This document shows positions 42,253-46,643 of a stretch of DNA of 64,000 nt, piece by piece. Position 1 is the first letter of the stretch. Every line of letters begins with the position of its first letter. Both the position numbers and the translations under genes were made by a program. The notes under the pieces were generated by a model. It worked only from the letters and a program-made list of their open reading frames with translations, ran no database searches and was not told the origin of the DNA. Origin of the DNA: SAR202 cluster bacterium bin87 (GTDB lineage Bacteria; Chloroflexota; Dehalococcoidia; Lucifugimonadales; UBA3495); contig MPNC01000008.1 of the NCBI GenBank assembly GCA_002238825.1, positions 1 to 64,000 on the forward strand, written 5' to 3'.

Positions 42253-42735
42253 TCAGCGCGAGGCGAGCCAGGCGTCGTGATTTTCCCGCATATACTGCAG
42301 GTGCTCCGGAATGTGGACGGCATACACGTCCAGCCAGTCGTCCAGCGTCATGTCCCCGTTCTCGGGGTGGTAGCAGGTGTTGGCCCAGGCCGAATCGGGC
42401 AGCGTCTTTATCAGGTCGTAGGTCTGTTGCCGGAGGATCCGGAAAAGTTCCAGAGCGCCTTCCACGGAACTGCCGGCATATCCCAGGGCGCTTGCCCATC
42501 CGTTTTCGTCGTACGCCATCAGCGGTTCGCCCGGCTCGGCGATGAAGCGGCGGCACCGGATGTAGCTATTGGCCTCGCTATCGGTGATATGGACCAGGTG
42601 TTCGTGAATGCTCCAGCAACCGTGTTCATCGCGGAAGTCCCACATTTCTTCGGGAAACTCCCGCAGCCCAGCCATGAGAGTATCATAGGCTGAACCATAA
42701 GTCTCGATCTTTGCGGAGCGCGTTGCTGGGGACAT
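42253..42735 (-). CDS. DinB-family protein
   Basis: A 160-residue four-helix-bundle protein of the DinB/YfiT superfamily. The metal-triad histidines are suggested by SIHEHLVHITDSE and HIPEHLQYM. Members include mycothiol- or bacillithiol-dependent transferases and metal-dependent hydrolases; the function here is unknown. ATG 42735 is preferred to the upstream GTG 42750. A GYD-domain gene lies just upstream on the same strand. Confidence 0.8.
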   Translation of the reverse strand: MSPATRSAKIETYGSAYDTLMAGLREFPEEMWDFRDEHGCWSIHEHLVHITDSEANSYIRCRRFIAEPGEPLMAYDENGWASALGYAGSSVEGALELFRILRQQTYDLIKTLPDSAWANTCYHPENGDMTLDDWLDVYAVHIPEHLQYMRENHDAWLASR

Positions 42736-42786
42736 GACACTCTCGTTCACGATGGATCCGGCGACGTTTCAATTTTGCGCAGCAGC

Positions 42787-43107: not shown

Positions 43108-43288
43108 CGGACACGTCTCCTTTGTCTATCGTCTATGCCAATAGTGGCATTGCCACTTAAAAATCGCCGCGTAGTCTATCACACGGGGACGCGCCGCCCG
43201 GCGGTGGCCCCCTTGCCGGCGGCGACGATACGGGCGATAATCCGCCCAGGAAATGATCCCGGAGCGTTCACCCAGGAGGCGAAACGCC

Positions 43289-44827
43289 ATGAAGTATGAC
43301 GTCATTATCATCGGGGCGGGATCAGCCGGTTGCACGATGGCAGCCAGGCTGACGGAAGACCCTGACCGTTCGGTCCTGCTCCTCGAGGCCGGGCCGGATT
43401 ATCCTGATTTTGAGCTGTATCCGGACGACCTGAAGTACGGCTACGATCAGACCGCGTCCGCGGTTGACGCCCCGCACAACTGGACCTTCTGGGCCCAGAA
43501 TCCGGGCCAGGCCAATCCCATGCCCGTTCCGCGCGGCCGGGTGGTCGGCGGGTCCTCCGCCATCAATGGCCAGGTGCTGCTGCGCGGCGTTCCTGAGGAC
43601 TACGACGCCTGGGCGGCCCTGGGCAACGACGAATGGAAATTCACCGACTGTCTGCCCTATTTCCGCAAGATGGAAACAGACGTAGACATCAGCGACGACT
43701 TCCATGGCAACACGGGGCCAATTCCCGTCCGGCGACATAAGCAGGAAGACTGGCTGCCCGCACAGGTCGCCTTCTGGAATGCCTGCCGCGACGCGGGTCA
43801 CCCCCACGACCCGGACATGAACCATCCGGATTCCGGCGGCGTCGGACCGGTCCCCATGAACAACCCCAACGGCGTGCGGATGAGTACGTCAATCACCTAC
43901 CTGCGCGAGGCCAGGCACCGGCTCAACCTGACCATCCGCCCCAACGTCACCTGTCGCCGGATCGTCTTTGACGGCAAGAAAGCGACCGGCGTGGAAGTGG
44001 AAAGCGGTGGTGAGGTGTTCACCGTTGAAGCCGACGACATCATCCTGAGCTCCGGTGCAATCGCGTCCCCGCAGCTGCTCATGCTGTCGGGCGTTGGTCC
44101 GGCGGACCACCTGCGGGAGATGGGTATCCCGGTGGTGCATGAGCTCCCCGGCGTTGGCCAGAACCTGCGGGACCACCCCAACATTCGCGTCCCGGTGAAG
44201 GTGAAAGATGACTTCCCGCTGGACGCATCGGCGCCGCGAACCCAAGTCTGCCTGCGCTATACCGCCAGCGGCAGCCACCTCCGCAACGACATTCAGATCA
44301 TGCAGTCGTCCTTCTCGTCGCCGATCGCCGGCGACCCGCTGGAAGCCGAAGGCATCCGGTTCACCTGCATCCTCGAGTTGGCGATTGGATCGGGTCAGTT
44401 GCGACTGGCGAGCACCGACCCGCATGACCAGCCGGCGTTGAACTACAACTACTTCCAGGAAGAGTTTGACCTCTCGCGGATGCGCGAGGCGGTCCGGGTC
44501 TGCGTCAATCTGCTGGACAGCGACCATTACAAGGACGTCGCCGACGAATTGCTGGACCCGCTACCCGCCGACCTGGAGAGCGATGAGGCGCTGAACGACT
44601 GGCTGAAGCGAGTGGTCAGCACTTCGCAGCATATCTCCGGTACGTGCAAAATCGGCTCGGCCGACGATCCAATGGCAGTGGTCGACCAGCACTGTCGGGT
44701 ACACGGCCTGGAGAACCTGCACGTTGCCGACGCCTCGGTGATGCCGGACTGCATCCGCGCCAACACCAACTGCACCACCATCATGATTGCCGAGCGGAAG
44801 TCCGACTGGTTCCGCTCTGGGGAATAA
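43289..44827 (+). CDS. GMC family FAD-dependent oxidoreductase 2
   Basis: A 512-residue paralogue of GMC oxidoreductase 1. FAD motif VIIIGAGSAGCTMAARL, first signature VVGGSSAINGQVLLRG, second signature GAIASPQLLMLSGVGP, and active-site region QHISGTCKIG with RANTNCTTIMIAE. AGGAGG precedes ATG 43289 by eight bases. The predicted selenoprotein gene follows after 25 bases, so a common transcript with the glutaredoxin-DinB fusion and PAC2 gene is likely. Substrate unknown. Confidence 0.92.
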   Translation: MKYDVIIIGAGSAGCTMAARLTEDPDRSVLLLEAGPDYPDFELYPDDLKYGYDQTASAVDAPHNWTFWAQNPGQANPMPVPRGRVVGGSSAINGQVLLRGVPEDYDAWAALGNDEWKFTDCLPYFRKMETDVDISDDFHGNTGPIPVRRHKQEDWLPAQVAFWNACRDAGHPHDPDMNHPDSGGVGPVPMNNPNGVRMSTSITYLREARHRLNLTIRPNVTCRRIVFDGKKATGVEVESGGEVFTVEADDIILSSGAIASPQLLMLSGVGPADHLREMGIPVVHELPGVGQNLRDHPNIRVPVKVKDDFPLDASAPRTQVCLRYTASGSHLRNDIQIMQSSFSSPIAGDPLEAEGIRFTCILELAIGSGQLRLASTDPHDQPALNYNYFQEEFDLSRMREAVRVCVNLLDSDHYKDVADELLDPLPADLESDEALNDWLKRVVSTSQHISGTCKIGSADDPMAVVDQHCRVHGLENLHVADASVMPDCIRANTNCTTIMIAERKSDWFRSGE

Positions 44828-44852
44828 ACCACAAAACGCGAGGTAAACGACC

Positions 44853-45632
44853 ATGACAACCGCACAGCGAGAAGTTCACGTCTACACCAACCCTGGTTGA
44901 TTCAGCTGTCGGACGCTGGAGGAGTTCCTGGCGTCCAACGGTGTTCAGTATGAACACCACGACCTGCTGACCGACGAGCCGGCGCGCGAGGATTTGAAGT
45001 CCCGCGGCATATTGTCCGCTCCCGTGACCATCATCGATGGCGCGGAGGTCATTATCGGTTACTATCCCAAGAAGTTGATCCCCGCATTGGGGCTGGCCGA
45101 GGCGCCCATCGACCTTTCCGGCCGCACCGCCTGGCTCGCCGACAAATACAAGCGGATCCTTGGGGCGGCGGCACGAGCCACCTGCGAGCTCTCTGCGGAA
45201 CAGCTTGCGCAACCCGTGCAGTGGCGACCGGAAGTGTTGCGGGACACCCTGGTGCACATCGTGTCCTTCCCCGAACTCGCTTATACGAGCAGCACCCGGG
45301 GCTCTATGAGCACCGATGACATGCGGGCGTGCAAAGAGAGCCTGGCTCACCTGAACGCTCCTGATGACATCGCTAGCTACGCCCTGAAGGTGGCCGATGA
45401 CATCGCCGAATTCCTCGCCAGCGGTGACACCGATGGATTCGATCGGGTCGTACCCGCGCACTACGGCGGCGAGGTAACCGTTCTCGAATTGCTGAACATA
45501 ATCCTGAGCCACAGCACGCACCATCTCAAGCAGGTGTACTGGTTCATGGACGACCAGCTTGGTCAGCCTCCGAAGGCTCCCGCGTCCGATGAGGACATGG
45601 ATGGCATCTTCACGCCGGCCCAGTTGATCTAG
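44853..45632 (+). CDS. Predicted selenoprotein: Sec-containing glutaredoxin fused to a DinB-like domain
   Basis: Seen directly: GAGG lies nine bases ahead of ATG 44853. Codon 16 is TGA (44898-44900), and the same frame then runs open to TAG 45632 (259 residues with Sec). The product starts MTTAQREVHVYTNPG, then U16-FSC19, then RTLEEFLASNGVQYEHHDL and a cis-Pro segment SAPVTIIDG: a glutaredoxin/NrdH-type thioredoxin fold whose CxxC would be UxxC. Residues about 88-259 form a DinB/YfiT-type bundle (RPEVLRDTLVHIVSFPELAY, LSHSTHHLKQVYWFMDD). A SECIS-like hairpin begins 10 bases after the UGA. Inference: Sec is inserted. The alternative is a nonsense mutation of the catalytic Cys codon with reinitiation downstream. 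Role is probably thiol redox or detoxification; the partner thiol is unknown. Confidence 0.85.
44898..44936 (+). promoter_or_regulatory. Candidate bacterial SECIS element (UGA plus hairpin)
   Basis: After TGA 44898-44900 and ten bases comes GGACGC (44911-44916) pairing perfectly with GCGTCC (44931-44936). Inside, T917 can wobble with G930, GGA (918-920) pairs with TCC (926-928), T929 is left bulged, and the apical loop is GGAGT (921-925). Spacing, a bulged U and a loop starting with G agree with the E. coli fdhF type. By-eye folding only. Confidence 0.7.
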
Positions 45633-45653
45633 CGCCGCCCGGAGGGAAGTGTC

Positions 45654-46643
45654 ATGGCCGAGCCGCTTATCGCCCTCGACGAAACCCCGGAGACGCGGGT
45701 GCTCCTCGCCGGCTGGCGGCGGCAATGGTCGGACGGTGGGAACATTTCCAGCGGCATGCCGCGCTGGCTGATCGACAAGCTGTCGGCGCGGCGTATCGGC
45801 GGGATGACCGAAGAGATCTCCAGGATGTGCTTCCCCTTCCAGGTGGCCGGCACGCATGATCTGTACCGCCCGCGAGCGGCGTTCGACGACGGTCTCCCCA
45901 GTCGTCCCATGCAATGGGACAACGGTTTCTGGGACGCCGGCGACGGCGTGGTCATATTCCTCGGGGTTGAGCCCTGGTACCGCATTGACCTGTACGGAGA
46001 CGCCTTTTTCGAAGCTGCGGCGGCATTGGGCAATCCGAAGATTGCCGCTGTCGAAGGCTACAACGGCCCGGCGCCGCCGGAATTGGAACGTCGGGTGTCG
46101 TGCGTGTACAGCAAGGCGTCCATGGCGGACGAGTTGCGGCAGCACGGCATGCTGTTCTCGAGCTACGGATCCCAGCAACGCCAGGGACCCACGGTGGGAA
46201 TGGCGTTGGTGAGTATCGCCCACTACCAGCATCCGGACCTGGAGATGGTGCGCGTCGGCGCCATGGCGCCCATGTTCCCCTTCAGCGGAGGCAGCAGCGG
46301 AAGTGGAGGTGGGGGAGGCGGCGGCCAGTTGGGTATCACCACCGACCACCGCGCTTTCTACGACATTATGCGTCGACTGCGCGCCCTGTACTCCCTGGAC
46401 ATAGATTTGTCCGACCTGAGGCCTCGCTACGAGGAAGAAGCGTCGCGTCTACTGGAATCTCTGGACCGCGTGGCCCAGCGCAACGAAGAGGCGCGGAGGT
46501 ACATCGACCGCGTGCGCAACGACTACCAGTTCCAGCCCTTCGAGGAGCCGGTCGAACTCGACCCGAGCATCGAAGGAACGCTCGCCGACATCCTGGGACA
46601 GTTCGACCTGCCCGACTCTGAGGGCGAAACGCCGGACCGCTGA
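45654..46643 (+). CDS. PAC2-family protein (proteasome assembly chaperone-like)
   Basis: A 329-residue protein of the PAC2 (PF09754) family, as found beside proteasome or NTP-dependent protease genes in actinobacteria and archaea. Core segments: DGVVIFLGVEPWYRIDLYG, CVYSKASMADEL, and LGNPKIAAVEGY. A Gly/Ser-rich linker (FSGGSSGSGGGGGGG, about residues 217-231) separates it from a helical C-terminus. GGAGGG precedes ATG 45654 by eight bases. Function in bacteria without a proteasome is unknown; no protease gene is in the window. Confidence 0.75.
   Translation: MAEPLIALDETPETRVLLAGWRRQWSDGGNISSGMPRWLIDKLSARRIGGMTEEISRMCFPFQVAGTHDLYRPRAAFDDGLPSRPMQWDNGFWDAGDGVVIFLGVEPWYRIDLYGDAFFEAAAALGNPKIAAVEGYNGPAPPELERRVSCVYSKASMADELRQHGMLFSSYGSQQRQGPTVGMALVSIAHYQHPDLEMVRVGAMAPMFPFSGGSSGSGGGGGGGQLGITTDHRAFYDIMRRLRALYSLDIDLSDLRPRYEEEASRLLESLDRVAQRNEEARRYIDRVRNDYQFQPFEEPVELDPSIEGTLADILGQFDLPDSEGETPDR

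Follow-up and report, generated by a model that had tools for sequence, protein, structure and literature searches.

The 64,000-nucleotide stretch of SAR202 cluster bacterium DNA analyzed here (the window) contains a gene for a predicted fusion of a glutaredoxin and a DinB-type domain, in which an in-frame UGA occupies the first redox position of the glutaredoxin, together with neighboring oxidoreductase and PAC2-family genes (Table 1). The reading frame opens with the ATG at 44853, meets TGA at codon 16, continues through 243 sense codons and closes with a TAG at 45630-45632. An earlier note on this locus, made from the sequence alone, had described this succession of ribosome-binding site, ATG, 15 codons, TGA and 243 open codons, and the description held when the sequence was re-read. 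Its expectation that standard annotation would lose the N-terminus and start the gene downstream held as well: the conventional ORF call begins only at TTG 44994 and runs to 45632 (212 aa), and the active site is therefore lost. In the protein read through the UGA, by contrast, the Pfam profiles for Glutaredoxin (PF00462, 6.7e-9, 36.3 bits vs. a gathering cut-off of 22.9) and DinB (PF05163, 3.2e-7, 30.9 bits vs. 23) are both matched, as is PF12867 (30.3 bits vs. 24.8).

Table 1. Coordinates of the gene, its parts, its RNA signals and its neighbors in the window.
Feature	Position	Strand	Basis or remark
GMC oxidoreductase gene	43253..44827	+	25 bp upstream of the fusion gene, likely same operon
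Shine-Dalgarno-like GAGG	44840..44843	+	9 nt 5' of ATG; from sequence
Sec-glutaredoxin-DinB gene	44853..45632	+	259 residues, Sec at 16; homologue comparison and alignment
Glutaredoxin domain, Pfam PF00462, residues 8-63	44874..45041	+	Profile; fold match residues 7-80
In-frame UGA, Sec as residue 1 of UxxC (U-F-S-C)	44898..44900	+	UGA conservation; Cys in Pseudomonadota homologues
Resolving Cys19 codon of UxxC, invariant	44907..44909	+	Alignment
SECIS-like hairpin, 10 bp, one bulged U, apical loop GGAGU 44921-44925	44911..44936	+	Folding, covariation, synonymous conservation
Second conserved hairpin GGUGUUC..GAACACC, directly downstream	44940..44958	+	95% of cells paired
DinB / S-transferase-like domain, Pfam PF05163, residues 111-241	45183..45575	+	Profile; fold match residues about 86-245
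His135 codon, first ligand of predicted metal triad	45255..45257	+	Invariant in 51 sequences
His220 (45510-45512) and His224 (45522-45524), HxxxH of predicted metal triad	45510..45524	+	Invariant in 51 sequences
PAC2-family gene	45654..46643	+	21 bp downstream of the fusion gene

The upstream position of the GMC oxidoreductase gene is seen in the window's genus, and in most other genera carrying the fusion a GMC gene, about 60% identical to that of the window, lies just downstream on the same strand. That GMC genes are the partners in both layouts suggests a functional link between the two genes. A PAC2-family gene is often found near the fusion in genera without a GMC neighbor, and flavin monooxygenase-like genes are also common in its vicinity; with GMC, PAC2 and flavin monooxygenases as neighbors, a role in the oxidative breakdown or detoxification of organic compounds is suggested. 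A mycofactocin link of the GMC oxidoreductase was considered and rejected: the protein passes the NCBIfam MftG cut-off, but no MftC, the mycofactocin radical SAM maturase, exceeds its cut-off in the genome, and the MftG name is therefore probably wrong. Two further features of the region were observed, a YfiT-like DinB_2 protein encoded on the minus strand (42253-42750) about 2 kb from the fusion gene, and a Ser/Gly-rich run, SGGSSGSGGGGGGG, in the middle of the PAC2-family protein.

Conservation and decoding of the in-frame UGA

Named relatives carrying the gene are MAGs of Dehalococcoidia, Chloroflexi and SAR202 cluster bacteria, and nearly all of the sequences compared come from MAGs. TGA stands at codon 16 in all 42 distinct homologues in which the region is present (L048 and L080 begin at a contig end 3' of it), and is never replaced by TGC or TGT. 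In these homologues, which extend down to about 52% identity, the UGA lies within an invariant PGUFSC followed by R, and the invariant residues flanking it are written with varied synonymous codons; upstream, Val8 uses all four of GTC, GTT, GTA and GTG. Universal TGA combined with synonymous variation on both sides indicates that the UGA is not in frame by chance, and since independent MAGs representing many species carry the gene, an error of assembly or reads can be excluded. A search of 13 same-genus relatives did not recover the gene in 3, all of them draft genomes (85-92% complete). One homologue of SAR202 type (L033) lies on a contig labeled Mesorhizobium (CATMOC010000198.1), with an N-terminal sequence identical to that of a Dehalococcoidia homologue (L051); this label is likely a binning error.

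The UGA is also present beyond this set. In a second subfamily of glutaredoxin-DinB proteins (31-35% identical) it lies within VYFRPGUFTCGRTKEF, and several of these genes end with a TGA stop in addition to the internal Sec UGA. In more distantly related full Sec fusions, from further families and classes of Chloroflexota, the motif is PGUSSC, AGUSSC or PGUHSC. A tblastn search against plasmid records recovered three full-length Pseudomonadota homologues from Roseomonas, Variovorax and Caballeronia (97% of the query, 22-26% identity), in which the motif is GCSSC and Cys is aligned to the UGA. In a small tree, these Cys forms fall among the Sec forms (support 0.87 with L106); the position is compatible with a Sec-to-Cys replacement, although the sampling is thin.

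The assembly containing the window (4.96 Mb in 67 contigs, 100% complete) encodes the machinery for Sec insertion: a tRNA-Sec (66.4 bits vs. a 47-bit cut-off, with anticodon TCA according to ARAGORN), SelB (352.7 bits vs. 242), SelA (544.5 bits vs. 268) and SelD (373.1 bits vs. 125). No sel genes were found in the neighborhood of the tRNA-Sec gene (L010), and SelA, SelB and SelD are encoded on other contigs. The SelD gene (contig C42, 681408-682328; L086) contains one internal in-frame TGA, so SelD is probably a selenoprotein itself. UGA also serves as an ordinary stop within the window, terminating the PAC2 and DinB_2 genes. When the window was scanned naively for further conserved TGA read-throughs, most hits were shadow frames of conserved genes, and the scan is uninformative on this point.

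A SECIS-like hairpin starts 10 nt after the UGA, with its apical GGAGU 21-25 nt after it, and the 60 nt following the UGA (44901-44960) fold with -27.2 kcal/mol (z -4.0). Among 41 sequences, the first hairpin has compensatory changes in 12 at pair 21-38 and in 11 at pair 22-37; a nearly invariant Thr is written mostly as ACG opposite a GCG, TCG or ACG codon, but mostly as ACU opposite AAG. The covariation score of both hairpins together (0.161 vs. 0.116 ± 0.006 in shuffles) is above that of every slid version, and such scores are inflated by the relatedness of the sequences. Synonymous conservation of the gene is highest at codons 9-20 and 25-36, reaching 1.7 times expectation at codons 13-20 and 1.6 times at codons 25-32. 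Not all observations are favorable: the first hairpin is poorly formed in some homologues (e.g., L044 and L036), its lower-stem pair 22-37 fails to form in 19 of the 41 sequences, and an Rfam scan of 44700-45800 gave no known SECIS, only a sub-threshold miRNA match. RNAalifold run on the 41 sequences preferred a different, weak structure, so the first hairpin rests on single-sequence folds, on pair counts for the named structure and on synonymous conservation.

Despite the absent Rfam match, the SECIS reading is convincing because a similar hairpin recurs in further Sec-glutaredoxin families. In 28 other Chloroflexota Sec-glutaredoxin genes (the second fusion subfamily, stand-alone glutaredoxins and glutaredoxin-PDZ proteins), a hairpin of the GCGAAAG-AGUUU-CUUUCGC type lies at a closely similar position, 96% paired and with double changes at three pairs (covariation score 0.329 vs. 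0.177 ± 0.017). The hairpin common to these families is a possible handle for finding more selenoproteins in the phylum. Several families of predicted Sec-glutaredoxins were seen in Chloroflexota (L088-L098, L101, L104-L107, L114-L132), comprising stand-alone, glutaredoxin-PDZ and two glutaredoxin-DinB subfamilies that share the hairpin at a near-equal distance from the UGA, and some have Cys twins (L099, L109, L111, L121). The second hairpin of the fusion gene (GGUGUUC-AGUAU-GAACACC) is kept in most of the 41 homologues, and the other Sec-glutaredoxin families show no clear sign of it.

The earlier note had predicted a Sec-glutaredoxin fused to a DinB/YfiT bundle, to be refuted by an absence of sel genes, by a lack of homologues with Cys aligned to the UGA or by TGC/TGT in place of TGA. 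The prediction held on each of these computable points: all four of selA, selB, selC and selD are represented in the genome, the UGA falls at the first Cys of a glutaredoxin CxxC as judged by the three full-length Cys homologues, and TGA was invariant. The note also advised a SECIS search of 44880-44960, and a SECIS-like hairpin is present at the expected place. There is no protein-level proof.

Protein fold, thiol partner and competing explanations

An AlphaFold2 model based on the 41-sequence alignment (pLDDT 90.1, pTM 0.84) superimposes at residues 7-80 on the clostridial glutaredoxin cGrx1 (Z 13.9, 0.8-1.0 Å rmsd, 40% identity) and at residues about 86-245 on DinB/YfiT chains (Z 12-16, up to 15.8), including mycothiol S-transferase (8f5v) and maleylpyruvate isomerase (2nsg/2nsf; Z 12.7 for 2nsg). 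His135, His220 and His224 are invariant in 51 of 51 aligned sequences, Cys forms included, whereas His203 and His223 vary. The invariant triad matches the three-His metal site of BstA (H67/H160/H164), and activity in the BstA family is metal dependent (PMC5815605); by analogy, a similar site is predicted in the DinB domain, with metal binding inferred.

The thiol that such a site might use remains unidentified, since no glutathione or bacillithiol genes were found: profile searches of the genome gave no BshC, no glutathione synthetase and no GCS2 glutamate-cysteine ligase, and MshC had only CysRS-like matches below the cut-off. The profiles did give matches in the expected control genomes; of the ergothioneine steps, only the ligase was covered. 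A second CysRS/MshC-like match in the same assembly lies in an open frame of 908 aa (contig C28, 112404-113552; L134); it scores under the MshC cut-off and could point to a thiol pathway not yet known. The glutaredoxin domain is nearest to NrdH/YruB-type profiles; as inferred from known NrdH biology, this is consistent with a thioredoxin reductase-type system, and not glutathione, as its reductant. The gene makes it testable which thiol, if any, replaces glutathione or bacillithiol in these bacteria.

Overall, the sel genes and tRNA-Sec, the Cys homologues, the universal TGA and the SECIS-like hairpin support the reading of 44853-45632 as a selenoprotein with Sec at the UGA, representing a widely conserved family. 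The support from comparison is strong, and peptide or selenium-labeling evidence is lacking. Sec decoding, the identities of the domains and the conservation of both active sites are shown by sequence comparison. That the protein has this identity and is also a thiol/selenol-dependent enzyme in which both active sites work is likely (about 0.8 for the two jointly), the biochemistry being inferred. Its most probable activity, again an inference for which there are no data on either activity or thiol partner, is that of a thiol S-transferase that depends on a metal and carries its own selenol reductase. In this reading, SelB with Sec-tRNA decodes the codon-16 UGA as Sec under the guidance of the first hairpin. 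In the scheme that we envisage for the enzyme, the metal site of the DinB domain would bind and activate a low-molecular-weight thiol, which would attack, or exchange with, an electrophilic or oxidized substrate. The Sec domain, itself reduced, like NrdH redoxins, by a system of the thioredoxin-reductase type, would then release or reduce the mixed (seleno)disulfide or conjugate, while the neighboring oxidoreductases may supply or consume the substrate. At the level of individual steps this scheme is tentative, and we would not favor its being correct in every detail.

It is worth weighing these readings against several alternatives. A pseudogene, an assembly error or a true stop would leave a 15-residue peptide and a DinB protein begun at TTG 44994, where a mechanical ORF does exist. 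This is practically ruled out by the retention of the UGA in all 42 distinct homologues within its invariant, synonymously varied surroundings; the products would also be missing half of the glutaredoxin fold, and the Cys homologues read straight through. Insertion of another residue, by reassignment to Trp or Gly or by near-cognate read-through, is similarly close to exclusion: nothing was found in its favor, and it is opposed by the full Sec machinery, by homologues with Cys rather than Trp or Gly, and by the use of TGA to end other genes in the window. A selenium switch, in which only the downstream-started DinB protein would be made when selenium is low, could use the in-frame TTG, but the short product would retain half of the glutaredoxin domain, and we regard this as very unlikely.

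The remaining alternatives accept the selenoprotein and concern its function. Sec16 itself might be the nucleophile served by the DinB metal site without a free thiol, for example in a cis-trans isomerase or transferase acting by Michael addition; the mycothiol-dependent maleylpyruvate isomerase also has a DinB fold. The lack of detected glutathione and bacillithiol genes in the genome, the fold match to 2nsg and the location of the Roseomonas Cys homologue beside isochorismatase, amidase and Asp/Glu-racemase family genes speak for this possibility. However, the invariant resolving Cys19 speaks for redox chemistry, a thiol not yet described may serve SAR202, and there is no evidence that residue 16 is near the metal site, which leaves the idea unlikely. 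The same holds for its bolder form, in which a DinB-type transferase or isomerase would use the fused selenol instead of a soluble thiol cofactor, giving a self-contained selenol-transferase in a lineage without the thiol pathways tested. A further possibility, also rather unlikely, is that the DinB domain has no catalytic role and serves only for binding or as a scaffold, the protein being a selenol reductase that acts for a partner, for example the GMC oxidoreductase. The conserved GMC adjacency, upstream or downstream depending on the genus, is in its favor; against it stands the exact metal triad, kept throughout while other histidines vary.

Comparison with known selenoproteins and DinB-family enzymes

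Sec at the active site of a thioredoxin fold is itself known; the Sec-glutaredoxin-DinB fusion is likely undescribed, as far as we could find. No paper naming both "selenoprotein" and "SAR202" was found in the open-access literature searched (subscription papers and preprints were outside its scope). Among the 119 prokaryotic selenoprotein families inventoried in 2026 are glutaredoxin on its own (PF00462, UxxC) and several fusions, none with DinB (PMC13188914), and DinB is not mentioned in a 2022 review (PMC9312934). The GOS survey likewise reported marine thioredoxin-fold selenoproteins with extra domains and listed Grx and Grx-like UxxC families, but its named fusions are Prx/PP2C, UGSC, Prx-like 2 and Prx-like 3, without DinB (PMC2398784); possibly, its "Grx-like" fragments include pieces of the gene described here. 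The NCBIfam Uxx-star selenoproteins and HUGP/GUXX-star fusion (NF041212, NF045501) are also Sec-glutaredoxin-like, one of them a fusion, but have a partner domain other than DinB, and the window's protein does not meet their cut-offs (30.9 of 66 and 17.3 of 325 bits). No NCBIfam model was matched by the fusion above its cut-off.

Each half has structural counterparts. cGrx1 of Clostridium (Alkaliphilus) oremlandii (PDB 7c10/7c12) has the same glutaredoxin fold and in its native form carries Sec as the first residue of U(C)PxC (PMC7642778), but it is a single-domain protein without DinB, and has U-P-x-C rather than U-F-S-C. The DinB/YfiT S-transferase-like superfamily (BstA, mycothiol S-transferase, maleylpyruvate isomerase) is alike in fold and three-His triad, although identity to solved DinB chains is only 9-18%, and the window's protein differs in having this domain joined to a Sec-glutaredoxin. 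The earlier note knew of no description of the combination, and this held in part: no description of the Sec form was found, but Cys versions from Pseudomonadota (WP_207446294.1, WP_162571355.1, WP_244817409.1) are already annotated as "glutaredoxin domain-containing protein" or "DinB family protein." These share the same two domains over their full length and keep the His triad, and differ in having Cys for Sec, in their low identity and in their gene neighbors. Because automatic gene calling drops the catalytic N-terminus, the Sec forms would pass as plain DinB proteins. The fusion adds a domain architecture, and apparently the DinB/S-transferase-like superfamily as well, to the selenoproteome of SAR202-type Chloroflexota.
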